This document shows, one piece after another, positions 1,789-35,153 of a stretch of DNA of 64,000 bases. Each line of letters begins with the position of its first letter. Position 1 is the stretch's first letter. The notes under the pieces were generated by a model. The model saw nothing but the letters and a program-made list of their open reading frames with translations. It had not been told where the DNA came from and did no database searches. The position numbers and the translations under genes are program-made. Origin of the DNA: an uncultured Bacteroidales bacterium (lineage in GTDB: Bacteria; Bacteroidota; Bacteroidia; Bacteroidales; FEN-979); NCBI GenBank assembly GCA_903887775.1, contig CAISRB010000024.1, positions 1-64,000 of the forward strand, read 5' to 3'.

Positions 1789-2090
1789 TCCCGCTCGCAG
1801 CTTCACACTGCCGCTACGGTGTCGCAACACGGTCGCATCTTTGCGTCGCCGCTACGGTGTCGCAACACGGTCGCATCTTTGCGTCGCGGCTACGGTGTCG
1901 CAATACGGTCGCAACTTCACACCGCCGCTACGGTGTCACTTCGTTTCACCTGATGCGGCTTGTGTGAATTGCTCCCTTCGTTTCACCTGATGCGGCTTAC
2001 GCAAAATGCTCCCTTCGCTCCACCTGATGCGGCTTACGTGAACTGCTTCGCTCGCTCCACCTGATGCGGCTTACGCAAAATGCTCGCTTA
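1789..2090. repeat. Two-module tandem repeat array: 4 copies of a 38-bp unit (starts 1811, 1849, 1887, 1925), then 4 copies of a 37-bp unit (starts 1947, 1984, 2021, 2058)
   Basis: Read directly: CCGCTACGGTGTCGCAACACGGTCGCATCTTTGCGTCG at 38-bp spacing, then CACCTGATGCGGCTTACGCAAAATGCTCCCTTCGCTC at 37-bp spacing. Confidence 0.95.
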
Positions 2091-2131: not shown

Positions 2132-5100
2132 ATGTTTGACAAGATCATAGACTTTTCCATCAGGAATAAAATGGCCATTGGAATAATGACTGTTTTGCTG
2201 ATTGCAGCAGGCATCTACTCTATGTTCCACCTGAAACTCGACGCAATCCCCGATATCACTAACAACCAGGTGCAGGTCATCACGATTGCCCCAACCCTGG
2301 CCTCCTCCGAAGTGGAACAGCTGATCAGTTACCCCATAGAAAAAGCTGTCGCTACTATTCCTGATGTGGTTGAGCTGAGGAGTGTGAGCCGCTTTGGCCT
2401 TTCGTTAGTGACCGTTGTTTTCGATGAGAGTGTGGATATTTACAGGGCGAGGCAGCAGATAGGCGAGAAGCTTACAGAAGCAGAAAAACAGATCCCGGCC
2501 GGGATCGGAGAACCCGAACTGGCCCCCATCAGCACCGGGTTGGGCGAGATATACCAGTACCTGGTCAAAGTGAAACCGGGTTATGAATCCCGTTACTCCC
2601 TCAGCGATCTCCGTACAATACAGGATTGGATGGTGAAACGTCAGCTTCTGGGAACTCCCGGTGTTGCTGAAGTGAGCTCACTGGGGGGATATATCAAACA
2701 ATATGAAGTCGCGCTGGATCCAAACCGGCTGCACAGCATGGGCATTTCGATTAACGAGATCTTCGATGCCCTCGAAAAGAATAACGAAAATACAGGTGCA
2801 GCTTACCTGGATGAAAAACCCTATGCGTATTTTATCAGGGGGATAGGCTTTGTTCACAGCCTTGACGATATCGAGAAAATAGTCATCAAAACAGTCAACA
2901 ACGTCCCGGTGCTGATCAGGGACATAGGAACAGTCAGGTTCGGTCATGCCACAAGATATGGGGCAGTTGTTGAAGCCGGCAAAGGAGAAGTTACCGGGGG
3001 TATGGTCATGATGCTCAAAGGCGAAAACTCAGTCGAAGTGATTAAAAGGGTGAAGGACAAGATTGCCCTGATCCAGAAGTCCCTGCCCGAAGGGGTATAT
3101 ATCGATTCCTTTATCGACCGTACGAAGCTGATCGCTAAAACAATCAATACGGTAACCCGAAACCTTCTGCTGGGGGGCCTTATCGTGATTTTCGTCCTCG
3201 CCTTGCTGATAGGAAACCTGAGAGCCGGTCTTATTGTCGCATCAGTCATCCCGTTGTCGATGTTATTCGCGATCATCATGATGGTGCTCTTCGGCGTTTC
3301 CGGCAACCTGATGTCGCTTGGAGCAATCGACTTCGGTATTATTGTCGACGGGGCTGTCATTGTTGTCGAAAGCGTTGTATACAGGCTGTTCCTGAGTCAC
3401 CACCATAAGCAGGGAATAATAAGGCTTAGCCGAGAACAGATGAACTCGGAAGTAAGTATATCGGCCAAAAGAATGATGCAGTCAGCCACCTTCGGGCAGA
3501 TCATTATCCTCATTGTTTACCTTCCGGTGATCTCTCTTTCGGGGATTGAAGGCAAAATGTTCAAACCCATGGCCGAAACAGTCATGTTTGCTGTCCTTGG
3601 CGCCTTCCTTCTTTCACTCACCTATATTCCCATGGTCTCATCCCTCTTCCTCAGCAGGAATACGAAACATTCGGTTAACATCTCCGATCATATCATGCGC
3701 TTTATCCATATCCTGTATGACCCGGTTATAAAGTTTGCGTTGAAGCATAAAGTGGGAGTGATCCTGTCTTCCGTCGCCGTGTTTGTGATCGCCCTTATCA
3801 TGTTCCTCAGGATAGATGCGGTGTTCGTCCCTTCTCTCGAAGAAGGCGACCTCCTTGTCCTGCCTAAAATCCAAAGCGGCAGTTCGCTTTCGCAAAGTAT
3901 CGAGACCTACCGGCAGGTTTCGGATATCCTGAAAAACGATTTTCCGGAAGTCAAAGATGTCGTAGCCAAGATCGGCGTAGGTGAGATACCAACCGACCCT
4001 ACACCGATGGAATCGGCCGATATGGTCGTCTGCCTTAAAGATAAACAAGAATGGGTATCGGCTTCCACGAAGGATGAACTGATTGAAAAGATGAAAGAAA
4101 AGCTGTCGGTAATCCCAGGTGTAAGTTATGAATTCATGCAGCCCATCGAGGCCCGCTTCAATGAACTCATGACGGGCATCAGGTCGGATGTGGCTGTGAA
4201 GATATTCGGCGATAATATGGATACCCTTTCGATGGAAGCGGAGAAACTGGCGTCAATGATCAGCGGGATCCCCGGGATCGGAGATATGAAAGTGGAACAG
4301 GTTGTTGGTTTGCCGCAGATCATCGTCCGTTATAACAGGGACCGGATTTCGGCCGACGGCATGAATATCAAAGACCTGAACAAGGCGGTAAAAGCGGCTT
4401 TTGCAGGCGAGCAGGCCGGGACCGTCTACGAAGGGGAAAAAAGGTTCGCAATGGTTGTAAGGCTGGACCAGGAGCACCGCAACTCGATAGAAGACGTGCG
4501 AAAACTTTTTGTTTCCCTGCCTTCAGGACGGCAGATACCTCTTGAACAACTTGCTGATATAAGGTTTGAAGACGGACCACAGCAGATTGCAAGGGACGAT
4601 GGGAAACGAAGAATAACAATCGGGATCAATGTAAGGAACCGCGATGTGGAATCTCTGATCGAAGATATCAGCAAAACAGTGGAGAGCAAACTGAAATTGC
4701 CTGCCGGGTATTATGTGACTTACGGCGGGCAGTTTGAAAACCTCATCGAAGCGAAGAAACGGCTTGCACTTGCCGTTCCTCTGGCGTTGTTCCTTATCCT
4801 CGTTTTGCTGTATATGACGTTCAGGTCGCTCAAAGAAACCCTGCTGGTATTTCTGGTAGTTCCATTTGCCGCTATAGGAGGGGTGTTTGCTTTGTACCTG
4901 AGCGGAATACCTTTCAGCGTCTCAGCCGGAGTAGGGTTCATTGCCCTTTTCGGCGTGGCTGTGCTTAATGGTATCGTCCTTATAAGCAGCTTTAATCAGC
5001 TGCGGGATGAAGGCATTGCAGACATCAAGGAGCGTGTGCTCAAAGGGACTAAAATACGGTTGCGCCCGGTAATGATGACTGCTTCGGTTGCATCGCTGGG

Positions 5101-6514
5101 GTTTCTTCCAATGGCCATTTCCCGTGCAACCGGCTCAGAAGTACAAAGGCCGCTGGCCATAGTCGTTGTTGGCGGATTAATTACTGCCACACTCCTGACC
5201 CTGGTCATACTCCCTGCCATTTATGCCCTGATCGAGTCGGGATGGAGATCGGGAAAAAGCAAATCCGCCCAAACTGCATCGTTACTTGCATTGCTTTTTG
5301 TTTTCCCGGCCCTCGGATTAAAAGCCCAGGGAAAGCCCCCTGTAATGAGCCTGAAGCAGTGCATCGACTCTGCGCTTGTACACAGCCCTTCGGTTAAAGC
5401 GGTGGCGCTTGAGAAAGATTATTACAGAGCAGGAAAGATGGCTGCCATCGATATCCCCAAAACGGAGCTGGGCGTAATTTACGGGCAAAGCAACAGCATC
5501 AACAATGATGATGAATTCAATATACGGCAGACCATTGAATTCCCGACAGTTTACATCCACCAGAAAGAAATAGCAAAAAGCCAGTCACAGGCAGCGGCTT
5601 TCAAACTCGCCCAGGCCAGGAATGAACTGATCTTCCGGGTGAGGATGATGTATTTTGACCTGCTTTGCCTGAATGCCGAACAGAAACTGTTGAAAACCAG
5701 GGACAGCCTCTATGCCTTGCTGGAAGACGCAGGGGAGAAGAGGTTCAGAACCGGGGAGACCGGGTCTCTTGAGAAGATGGCGGCCCAGGCTGCCCGCATG
5801 CAGGTGCATTACCAGCTCAGGCAAAATGAGACTCAATGGCAGACCGGGCTCCGGCAACTGAAAGCCGTTATGAATTTCAGGGGATACCTTCTGCCCGACA
5901 CCTCAATATCGCTTGTGAGTCTCTGTTCTTTAAACCCTGACACCAGCCTGTTTACAGGGAATCCGGCATTGGCCTTGCTGCAGCAGCAAACCGATGTTGC
6001 CGGCCGCCAGGTAAAACTCGAAAAATCGAAACTCCTGCCTGATATCTCGTTAGGCTATTTCAATAAAAGCCTGATCGGCACCCAGATTATTGACGGGACC
6101 GAACAAAACTTCAGCCGTTCCGACCGTTTCTCGGGCGTTTCAGGCAGTTTGTCGATCCCGGTATTCTTCGGGGCACAGGGATATAAGATCAGGGCTGCGG
6201 GAATTGAACGCAGGATAAACGAGGAGAAATACCTTCAGCAGAAAAATGAACTTGAAGCTGAATATGCTTCCTTCATCGGCCGGTACAGGGTTGAAAAGGA
6301 AATGCTGCTTTATTACAGCAACACAGCCGTTCCCCACAGCCTCCTGATGATCACGAACGCAGGGAAAAGCATGGCTGCTGGTGAAATTGCCTATCCGGAG
6401 TACCTGAAACTGATCGACAGCGCGCTGGAGATCAGGTGCTCCTTCATCGACATACAGAAACAATATTATACAACAATATCAGAGATCCTGCTTATCCAGG
6501 GGAAAAACGAATAA
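2132..6514 (+). CDS. cusA: CusA/CzcA-family heavy-metal RND efflux pump fused to a C-terminal TolC-like outer-membrane factor domain
   Basis: 1460 aa; residues ~1-1040 are HME-RND-like (GAIDFGIIVDGAVIVVE, IALFGVAVLNGIVLIS); C-terminal ~400 aa TolC-like (MSLKQCIDSALVHSPSVKAVALEKD...). Confidence 0.92.
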   Translation: MFDKIIDFSIRNKMAIGIMTVLLIAAGIYSMFHLKLDAIPDITNNQVQVITIAPTLASSEVEQLISYPIEKAVATIPDVVELRSVSRFGLSLVTVVFDESVDIYRARQQIGEKLTEAEKQIPAGIGEPELAPISTGLGEIYQYLVKVKPGYESRYSLSDLRTIQDWMVKRQLLGTPGVAEVSSLGGYIKQYEVALDPNRLHSMGISINEIFDALEKNNENTGAAYLDEKPYAYFIRGIGFVHSLDDIEKIVIKTVNNVPVLIRDIGTVRFGHATRYGAVVEAGKGEVTGGMVMMLKGENSVEVIKRVKDKIALIQKSLPEGVYIDSFIDRTKLIAKTINTVTRNLLLGGLIVIFVLALLIGNLRAGLIVASVIPLSMLFAIIMMVLFGVSGNLMSLGAIDFGIIVDGAVIVVESVVYRLFLSHHHKQGIIRLSREQMNSEVSISAKRMMQSATFGQIIILIVYLPVISLSGIEGKMFKPMAETVMFAVLGAFLLSLTYIPMVSSLFLSRNTKHSVNISDHIMRFIHILYDPVIKFALKHKVGVILSSVAVFVIALIMFLRIDAVFVPSLEEGDLLVLPKIQSGSSLSQSIETYRQVSDILKNDFPEVKDVVAKIGVGEIPTDPTPMESADMVVCLKDKQEWVSASTKDELIEKMKEKLSVIPGVSYEFMQPIEARFNELMTGIRSDVAVKIFGDNMDTLSMEAEKLASMISGIPGIGDMKVEQVVGLPQIIVRYNRDRISADGMNIKDLNKAVKAAFAGEQAGTVYEGEKRFAMVVRLDQEHRNSIEDVRKLFVSLPSGRQIPLEQLADIRFEDGPQQIARDDGKRRITIGINVRNRDVESLIEDISKTVESKLKLPAGYYVTYGGQFENLIEAKKRLALAVPLALFLILVLLYMTFRSLKETLLVFLVVPFAAIGGVFALYLSGIPFSVSAGVGFIALFGVAVLNGIVLISSFNQLRDEGIADIKERVLKGTKIRLRPVMMTASVASLGFLPMAISRATGSEVQRPLAIVVVGGLITATLLTLVILPAIYALIESGWRSGKSKSAQTASLLALLFVFPALGLKAQGKPPVMSLKQCIDSALVHSPSVKAVALEKDYYRAGKMAAIDIPKTELGVIYGQSNSINNDDEFNIRQTIEFPTVYIHQKEIAKSQSQAAAFKLAQARNELIFRVRMMYFDLLCLNAEQKLLKTRDSLYALLEDAGEKRFRTGETGSLEKMAAQAARMQVHYQLRQNETQWQTGLRQLKAVMNFRGYLLPDTSISLVSLCSLNPDTSLFTGNPALALLQQQTDVAGRQVKLEKSKLLPDISLGYFNKSLIGTQIIDGTEQNFSRSDRFSGVSGSLSIPVFFGAQGYKIRAAGIERRINEEKYLQQKNELEAEYASFIGRYRVEKEMLLYYSNTAVPHSLLMITNAGKSMAAGEIAYPEYLKLIDSALEIRCSFIDIQKQYYTTISEILLIQGKNE

Positions 6515-12110: not shown

Positions 12111-12297
12111 AAGCGAAGTATTTCACATAGGCCGCATCAGGTGGAACAAGCGAAGCAGTTCACACAAGCCGCCTCAGGTGGAACAAGCGAAGCAGTTCAC
12201 AAAAGCCACATCAGGTGGAGCGCAGCGACACCGTAGTGGCGTTGTGAAGCTGCGAGCGAAATGACACCGTAGTGGCGATATGAATTTGCAAGCGAAA
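12111..12297. repeat. Second copy of the two-module repeat, inverted relative to 1789-2090: three 37-bp units (starts 12131, 12168, 12205), then two GACACCGTAGTGGCG units 36 bp apart (12227, 12263)
   Basis: GCCGCATCAGGTGGAACAAGCGAAGCAGTTCACACAA is the reverse-complement type of the CACCTGATGCGGC module; GACACCGTAGTGGCG is the reverse complement of the CCGCTACGGTGTC module with one change. Confidence 0.93.
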
Positions 12298-12299
12298 AA

Positions 12300-25833: not shown

Positions 25834-25910
25834 GAGCGAAGCATTTTGAACTAGCCGACTCAGGCGGAGTGCAGCGACACCGCAGCGGCGGTGCAAAGAT
25901 GCGAGCGGCC
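25834..25910. repeat. Third, single-unit copy of the two-module repeat
   Basis: GAGCGAAGCATTTTGAACTAGCCGACTCAGGCGGAGTGCAGCGACACCGCAGCGGCGGTGCAAAGATGCGAGCG shares both module cores and GCAAAGATGCGA with the first array. Confidence 0.85.
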
Positions 25911-28138: not shown

Positions 28139-28291
28139 CTCATGGCTCATGGCTCATGGCTCATAGCTCATGGCTCATAGCTCATGGCTCATGGCTCATA
28201 GCTCATGGCTCATGGCTCATGGCTCATGGCTCATGGCTCATGGCTCATGGCTCATGGCTCATAGCTCATGGCTCATGGCTCATGGCTCATC
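28139..28291. repeat. 7-bp tandem repeat (CTCATGG/CTCATAG), about 21-22 copies
   Basis: Read directly; reaches the last codons and stop of purN. Confidence 0.97.
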
Positions 28292-32323: not shown

Positions 32324-33973
32324 ATGCGAATCTCCCAAATCGGACTGGCCATGCATGAACTCGGAAGAGCCAGGGAAATACTGGGTGTTTTATTCAAATA
32401 CGGGTTCCAGGACTGGGTCAGTAAAAATGGATTGGGCAAGTACCTTGTGACGAAGAAACGCTTTGCCCGAATTGAGCAATACAATCAGTGGGAGAGGATC
32501 AGGATGGCTGTGGAGGAGCTTGGCCCCACATTTATAAAATTCGGTCAGATACTGGCCGACCGGCCTGATATCCTCGATGAAGATCTCAGGAATGAACTTA
32601 AAAAACTCCAGGATGCTGCCGACCCCATGCCTGATGACATTGCCATTGCCTTTATTGAAAAAAACATCCATTGTTCCGTCGCCGACGTTTTCAGCAAATT
32701 TGACACCAACAGGCTGGCATCTGCCTCTATGGCACAGACCTACCGTGCAACTCTTCTGAACGGGGAAGAAGTTTGCGTTAAGATCCAGAGGCCGGGGATT
32801 GATAAAAAGATCAATCTTGACCTCCATCTCATGAATTATTTTGCCATTCGCATGCAAAAGAATAACCCCGAGATGGAAGCCATCAATGTAATTGGTATCG
32901 TTAAAGAATTCGGTAACACAATTAAAAAAGAACTGGATTTCAGGCATGAAGCGGCAAGCGTGATCAGGTTCAGGCATAATTTTGAGGACGATCCGGATAT
33001 TTATGTCCCGAAAATATTTACGCAGTTTACAAACCAGTATGTACTGGTTGAAGAATATGTTAGCGGGATCAAGGTTTCAGACATGGCATCACTTAACGCT
33101 TCCGGCCTTGATACATTCCAGCTTGCGAAAAATGCCGTCAGGCTGATGTTTGACCAGCTTTTTAAACATGGATTCTTCCATGCCGATCCGCATCCGGGAA
33201 ATATATTCGTACTTCCCGGTAATGTGATCAGTTTTATTGATTTTGGCATGATGGGTTCGTTAAGGGACGAGCACCTGAATTTTCTTGGGAAATACACTTT
33301 AGGCTATCTGGAGAGAGATGCACGTGGCATGACGGAAGCACTTCTGCTGGTTTCCGGAAAGAGGCATTTTGCGAGGTCCAGCGAACTGGAACATCAGATC
33401 AAGGACCTGCTTGCACATTACAAGTATCTTTCTATCGAAGAAATGGATTTCGGGAAGATCATGAACGAATCGGTTGATATACTTGTCCAATATGGTTTGC
33501 GGATGCCTCAGGGGATCTACCTCCTGGCCAAAGCGCTGATGGGAATAGAAAGAGTTGCGGTCGTCCTGAACCCGGGCATCGATTTTGCCGGTGAAATGAG
33601 GCCATATGCAACCGAGCTTATTTCACGGCAATTCGACCCGAAAGTGATTGCACGTGAAGTATTCGATTCGCTGAAAGAATATTACAGGCTCGTTACAGAG
33701 ATCCCGGCCGATCTCAACGAGATCATCAGTAAAATAAAGGAAGGCCGTTTTAAAACCCAGATCGAGCTCAAAGGCTTCGAGCCCCTGATCGAACATATAG
33801 ATGCTTTTGGGAACCGTCTTTCGATTGCTATCGTTCTTGCGGCCCTGATCATCGGTGCATCGATACTTTCACAGTGGGAACAGGTTCGCTGGATCGGCAC
33901 TGCAGTGTTCGGCCTTGCAGGTATATTCGGGTTCTGGATGCTGGTGAAACTTTTGCGAAAGAATAAGTTCTGA
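32324..33973 (+). CDS. ABC1/AarF/UbiB-family atypical kinase-like protein
   Basis: GPTFIKFGQILADRPDIL, ASMAQTYRATL, FFHADPHPGNIFV, FIDFGMMG; C-terminal TM segments. Confidence 0.93.
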   Translation: MRISQIGLAMHELGRAREILGVLFKYGFQDWVSKNGLGKYLVTKKRFARIEQYNQWERIRMAVEELGPTFIKFGQILADRPDILDEDLRNELKKLQDAADPMPDDIAIAFIEKNIHCSVADVFSKFDTNRLASASMAQTYRATLLNGEEVCVKIQRPGIDKKINLDLHLMNYFAIRMQKNNPEMEAINVIGIVKEFGNTIKKELDFRHEAASVIRFRHNFEDDPDIYVPKIFTQFTNQYVLVEEYVSGIKVSDMASLNASGLDTFQLAKNAVRLMFDQLFKHGFFHADPHPGNIFVLPGNVISFIDFGMMGSLRDEHLNFLGKYTLGYLERDARGMTEALLLVSGKRHFARSSELEHQIKDLLAHYKYLSIEEMDFGKIMNESVDILVQYGLRMPQGIYLLAKALMGIERVAVVLNPGIDFAGEMRPYATELISRQFDPKVIAREVFDSLKEYYRLVTEIPADLNEIISKIKEGRFKTQIELKGFEPLIEHIDAFGNRLSIAIVLAALIIGASILSQWEQVRWIGTAVFGLAGIFGFWMLVKLLRKNKF

Positions 33974-34062
33974 ATTTCGAATTTCGAATTTCGAATAACG
34001 AATGTCGAATTATGATTTTTTTCACAGTTCGACATTCAACATTCAATATTCGCTATTCGATA
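33974..34062. repeat. TTTCGAAT/ATTCGATA short-word repeat with inverted arms between convergent genes
   Basis: gaatttcgaatttcgaatttcgaataacgaatgtcgaa...; AATGTCGAA (34001-34009) pairs with TTCGACATT (34028-34036). Confidence 0.85.
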
Positions 34063-35085: not shown

Positions 35086-35103
35086 GGCTTGACGAATTAC
35101 GAG

Positions 35104-35153
35104 TTACGAATTACGATTTACGAATGATATCTGAAAGAAATCGTAATTCGTAA
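35104..35153. repeat. Inverted repeat built from a TTACGAA word
   Basis: TTACGAATTACGATTT (35104-35119) and AAATCGTAATTCGTAA (35138-35153), 16-bp perfect arms. Confidence 0.92.

Follow-up and report, generated by a model that had tools for sequence, protein, structure and literature searches.

A probable nest of short palindromic mobile elements in front of an efflux gene of an uncultured Bacteroidales bacterium

What fills the gap between a DUF6660 gene (PF20365, end at 1788) and a CusA/CzcA-type RND gene (TIGR00914, start at 2132) in an uncultured Bacteroidales bacterium? The window analysed here, a stretch of 64,000 nucleotides from contig CAISRB010000024.1, carries at this site a repeat array of about 1792-2089. 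Tandem Repeats Finder (TRF) reports 3.4 copies of 38 bp at 1810-1937 and 4.1 copies of 37 bp at 1939-2089, with A cores beginning at 1810, 1848, 1886 and 1924 (steps of exactly 38 bp) and B cores at 1947, 1984, 2021 and 2058 (steps of exactly 37 bp). These values confirm four 38-bp and four 37-bp exact-period units filling the gap, as an earlier sequence-only reading had described. That reading was also right to set a CRISPR array aside, as the units are contiguous and unique spacers are absent. The downstream cusA-like gene (2132-6514) encodes a fusion protein of 1460 aa that includes a TolC-type outer-membrane efflux (OEP) domain.

The element is present three times in the window (Table 1). 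At up to two mismatches, 7 B-core and 8 A-core matches were found, against about 0.1 expected by chance. Both the inverted array at 12111-12299 and the copy at 25834-25909 had gone unnoticed in the earlier reading, as had the complementarity of the modules. Other heptamer arrays in the window are (CTCATGG) x21.7 at 28139-28290, (GAATTTC) x5.7 at 33972-34011 and (ACGAATT) x4.9 at 35092-35125.

Table 1. Coordinates of the palindromic element and its parts in the window
Feature	Position	Strand	Details
Four left arms, module A, 38-bp period	1792..1942	+	arm stems 1797-1814, 1835-1852, 1873-1890, 1911-1928
Four right arms, module B, 37-bp period	1943..2089	+	arm stems 1955-1972, 1992-2009, 2029-2046, 2066-2083
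Innermost complete hairpin copy of the nested array, A4-loop-B1	1904..1979	+	covariance model, E 5e-25
Inverted second nested array, A2B3; flanked by a TolC-like (OEP) gene and a gene for an RND adaptor	12111..12299	-	inner hairpin 12185-12260, covariance model E 2e-25
Single diverged AB copy, adjoins AATAGCGA octamer array	25834..25909	-	covariance model E 3e-17

In terms of structure, module B repeats module A imperfectly in reverse complement, and A and B together make up a hairpin element of about 72 bp, with a left arm, a loop of about 12 nt and a right arm. The minimal copy in the genome is one A plus one B, and the A4B4 array is one long nested hairpin. All copies in the genome keep the order A(n)B(m), with 23 bp from the last A core to the first B core in nearly all of them, a fixed order that follows from A and B being arms of one palindromic element. 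The composite of two module types that was previously proposed is thus wrong in substance, as the modules are not independent, while the accompanying view of a defined architecture rather than simple slippage holds up. An inverted-repeat search reported none because the arms are too imperfect for the search seed.

The element reads GCAaCTTCACAC-C-GCCGC-TAC-GGTG-loop-CACC-TGAT-GCGGC-TT-GTGTGAAtTGC, with conserved unpaired bulges of TAC opposite TGA[T/G] and of C opposite TT. An alignment of 32 inner copies shows pairing in 95.4% of stem cells and changes on both sides in 10 of the 22 stem pairs (87 two-sided cells versus three one-sided G-U cells), with a covariation score of 0.301 versus 0.123 in shuffles. 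As the copies were gathered by core patterns with few mismatches, core conservation is inflated, including the 95% conservation of the internal-loop columns within the genus; most of the co-varying stem columns fall outside the collection patterns. The near absence of G-U changes leads us to favour a DNA hairpin over an RNA hairpin. A subfamily with a loop about 40 nt longer, bearing small hairpins of its own, was also seen (L061, L074, L081 and many copies in G004, where it is the main form).

With respect to distribution, the covariance model gives about 43 copies in this genome, so the array has many counterparts beyond this locus, and the lack of further copies that the earlier reading had named as refuting does not apply. 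The model gives 3-51 copies in each of seven congeners, and all eight members of the genus carry the element (3-51 copies). This dispersal, with conserved order throughout the genus, led us to reject a simple local satellite. Other genera yielded nothing comparable by the covariance model. A divergent relative exists in the sister-genus genomes G049 and G054, where a hairpin that shares the core, GCNGC-TRC ... CTGAGGCNGC-TT-ATGTGG, is present in about 12 copies per genome. These were found via the right arm only, and a reversed control pattern matched nothing in either genome; the left-arm TRC, though unselected, is kept in nearly all copies read. Two further hits were left out of the counts: a weak one in G031, and L236 in G050, which is identical, flanks included, to L068 of the studied genome and may on that account be contamination of the G050 assembly. 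That G012 or G050, both with Y1 orthologues (see below), contain a similar hairpin family was rejected on 14-mer counts over 381 kb and 287 kb, which returned nothing but octamer arrays for G012 and, for G050, an unrelated palindrome, CTCCTGAAGGAG. This separate palindromic repeat of the sister-genus genome G050, CCCC..CTCCTGAAGGAG..GGGG, recurs at several sites (L216, L225, L228).

The same sites are occupied differently among species. Specifically, the spacer orthologous to that in front of the efflux gene contains AAAABBBB in the studied genome, a single AB in G006, and one AB together with half-arms in G005; in G001 and G004 it is free of the element. At the 12-kb site the AABBB array is present here and the flanking genes abut in G005 and G006, and the C15 site measures 105 bp here versus 7 bp in three relatives. 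The copies and orthologous sites that were read show neither a target-site duplication nor an excision product, and no autonomous parent element or parent insertion sequence was found among them.

Most copies are intergenic, in a gene-pair context that resembles the window background and includes divergent pairs. The placement before a metal efflux gene noted by the sequence-only reading is real; a link to metal efflux is incidental, as other copies lie beside unrelated housekeeping genes and two are inside murF-alr and mfd. Both of the latter are in frame. The copy in the murF-alr fusion (aa 338-363; L066:3200-3275, or C7:313199-313274 of the genome) falls in the linker from the middle to the C-terminal Mur ligase domain and adjoins a (GAAAAGC)-type tract; at the same linker, G002 (L119) has its own element-like sequence and an octamer tract. 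The copy in mfd (aa 382-407; L086:2747-2821, or C24:310746-310820) is preceded by a (GGTGAAAT)-type tract. Such elements thus also alter conserved proteins of this lineage.

How, then, did the arrays arise? The numbers of A and B arms per array correlate (rho 0.79, p 2e-8, 35 arrays). In 14 multi-layer arrays, inside-out pairing of arms gives 14.2/16 complementary positions and crossed pairing 12.0 (permutation p 4.5e-4). Arms of the second layer fit the partner at their own locus better than the arms of other loci (p 5e-5). In G002 the inner-layer matches recur, and the outer layers are less clear and lend weak support. Five loci share an inner unit that is 96% identical over 70 nt within outer arms that are only 77% identical, which is what insertion would leave as AB units spread into the loops of older copies. 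Four cleanly stacked insertions do not describe the array in front of the efflux gene: its layers score 16, 15, 13 and 11, the outer two pair uncleanly inside-out, A2 is nearly a duplicate of A3, and the right arm farthest out is without a clear partner. Tandem duplication of single arms, seen as AAAB in G002 and as 27-bp half-arms in G005, indicates that slippage or recombination also acts.

Taken together, these observations suggest that the array probably consists of nested copies of a single short mobile element, palindromic and non-coding. The element is best read as a REPIN-like, non-autonomous palindrome with a tendency to insert into loops of its own family. It would move in the form of folded single-stranded DNA whose bulges are recognised, and a new copy would often land in the loop of a resident one, taking AB to A(AB)B and onward, while local tandem duplication of single arms would add irregularity. 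The gap between the DUF6660 and cusA-like genes would thereby contain at least three stacked layers. If arrays grow by loop insertion, the order of insertions is recorded in each of them, so that the past of a miniature mobile element could be read off, and self-targeting could be tested directly on the matched arms of each layer. The literature searched contained no account of palindromes nesting in themselves in bacteria; organelle cases exist.

As for the enzyme, each genus member (8/8) has one Y1_Tnp gene (PF01797) of 143 aa with a HIH motif, at an identical locus with a cyoE-like gene on one side and a permease gene on the other. The proteins are 79-85% identical across the genus, dN/dS is 0.03-0.07 in the five pairs with estimable dS, and a PDB sequence search with the protein returned no relatives. 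The gene looks like a domesticated single-strand transposase, and the mobilising activity might come in trans from such a host-domesticated Y1 (HUH) enzyme. It is a weak candidate for this role because the gene is unflanked by copies, it scores below cut-off, it has orthologues in genomes without a detected element, and G054 has elements without any Y1 found. Within about 1.5 kb of the gene, the eight genomes contain no A or B core except one 3-mismatch match, and a RAYT flanked by REPs was rejected on this basis. Outside the genus the distribution of Y1 does not track that of the element, and two orthologues in genomes without detected elements adjoin the same permease gene. The whole chain, in which a folded single-stranded hairpin prefers the loop of its own kind and so builds Matryoshka arrays, with a domesticated Y1 transposase fixed in a housekeeping gene cluster of this Bacteroidales family mobilising it in trans, is a tentative proposal that we consider possible but doubtful.

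Several other explanations merit comparison with nesting by insertion. A single ancestral AB palindrome might have grown by arm-wise tandem slippage or recombination, template switching in the hairpin keeping partners alike with no new insertion. The AAAB arrays and identical neighbouring A arms of G002, the half-arm tandems of G005 and the near-identical A2 and A3 of the window array are all in keeping with such growth, which we regard as unlikely in view of the identical inner unit inside different outer units, the distinct types of matched partner arms per layer, and the joint rise of A and B copy numbers. Quite improbable, in our assessment, is a role as RNA (terminators, attenuators or mRNA stabilisers for the adjacent genes), with selection on RNA structure keeping the arms complementary. 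The whole 1792-2089 array does fold as RNA better than shuffles (z -4.1), and copies between tandem genes are oriented with transcription 15 to 7; however, this bias is not significant, G-U intermediates are nearly absent, the genomic context is like background, with divergent pairs and two in-gene copies among the sites, and sites are occupied differently among species. Moreover, the arrays have no match in Rfam, and a known structured RNA was rejected for this reason.

A true REPIN-RAYT system, with the syntenic single-copy Y1 gene as the mobilising RAYT, is a minority possibility about which we are sceptical. It would account for an inverted arm pair forming a hairpin with compensatory changes, for bulges as in E. 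coli REP (PMC8266576), for a CTAC in the left arm that is the reverse complement of GTAG, and for a single-copy, vertically inherited Y1 gene under the constraint described above. Nonetheless, the Y1 protein scores 25.8 bits on REP_Tyr_transpos (NCBIfam), below the cut-off of 80, its gene is unflanked, Y1 orthologues occur without detected elements in G012, G042, G022 and G046, and the elements of G054 occur without a Y1. The hairpin foot also differs: REPs are defined by an unpaired GTAG or CGTC tag at the palindrome end (PMC3733652), and in our alignment this tag is absent, the foot reading CGCTCGCA / TGCTTCGCT and CTAC sitting only at the internal loop. We file the self-nesting element as REPIN-like yet apart from REP because this defining tag is absent.

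The likeness to REPIN/REP-BIME with RAYT (PMC3116915, PMC3733652, PMC8266576) is nevertheless extensive, covering two inverted sequences that form one hairpin and are dispersed extragenically, compensatory changes, conserved stem bulges, non-autonomy and a domesticated Y1 gene in the genome; beyond tag and Y1, the difference is that the arrays here are nested rather than alternating. In Volvox carteri organelle genomes, short palindromes are reported to have inserted into one another and to form large composite repeats (PMC2670323); those are different sequences in algal organelle DNA, with no sequence relation claimed. Bacterial REP dimers reported inside unrelated palindromes, such as Anabaena GTAG-15 (PMC3733652), also place one palindromic mobile unit within another, but there host and insert are different families and here they are the same. 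Rickettsia palindromic elements are tolerated in frame inside protein genes (reviewed in PMC10969869), an analogy to the murF-alr and mfd copies with no sequence relation claimed; unlike them, the present element is mostly intergenic, without a conserved peptide and about 72 rather than about 150 bp long. Of the hallmarks of MITEs (terminal inverted repeats, a target-site duplication and a parent insertion sequence), inverted arms are present here, and no clear duplication or parent came to light among the copies and orthologous sites that were read. Integron attC sites were considered on account of the bulged hairpin, and their core RYYYAAC...GTTRRRY is absent at the ends of the aligned copies.

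In the orthologous spacers of G001-G007 (L125-L176), species-specific tandem repeats of 7-9 bp, for example (TAGCGAA)n, (GGTGAAAT)n and (TGTACGA)n, occur at the same intergenic sites, often starting within the upstream gene's stop codon.
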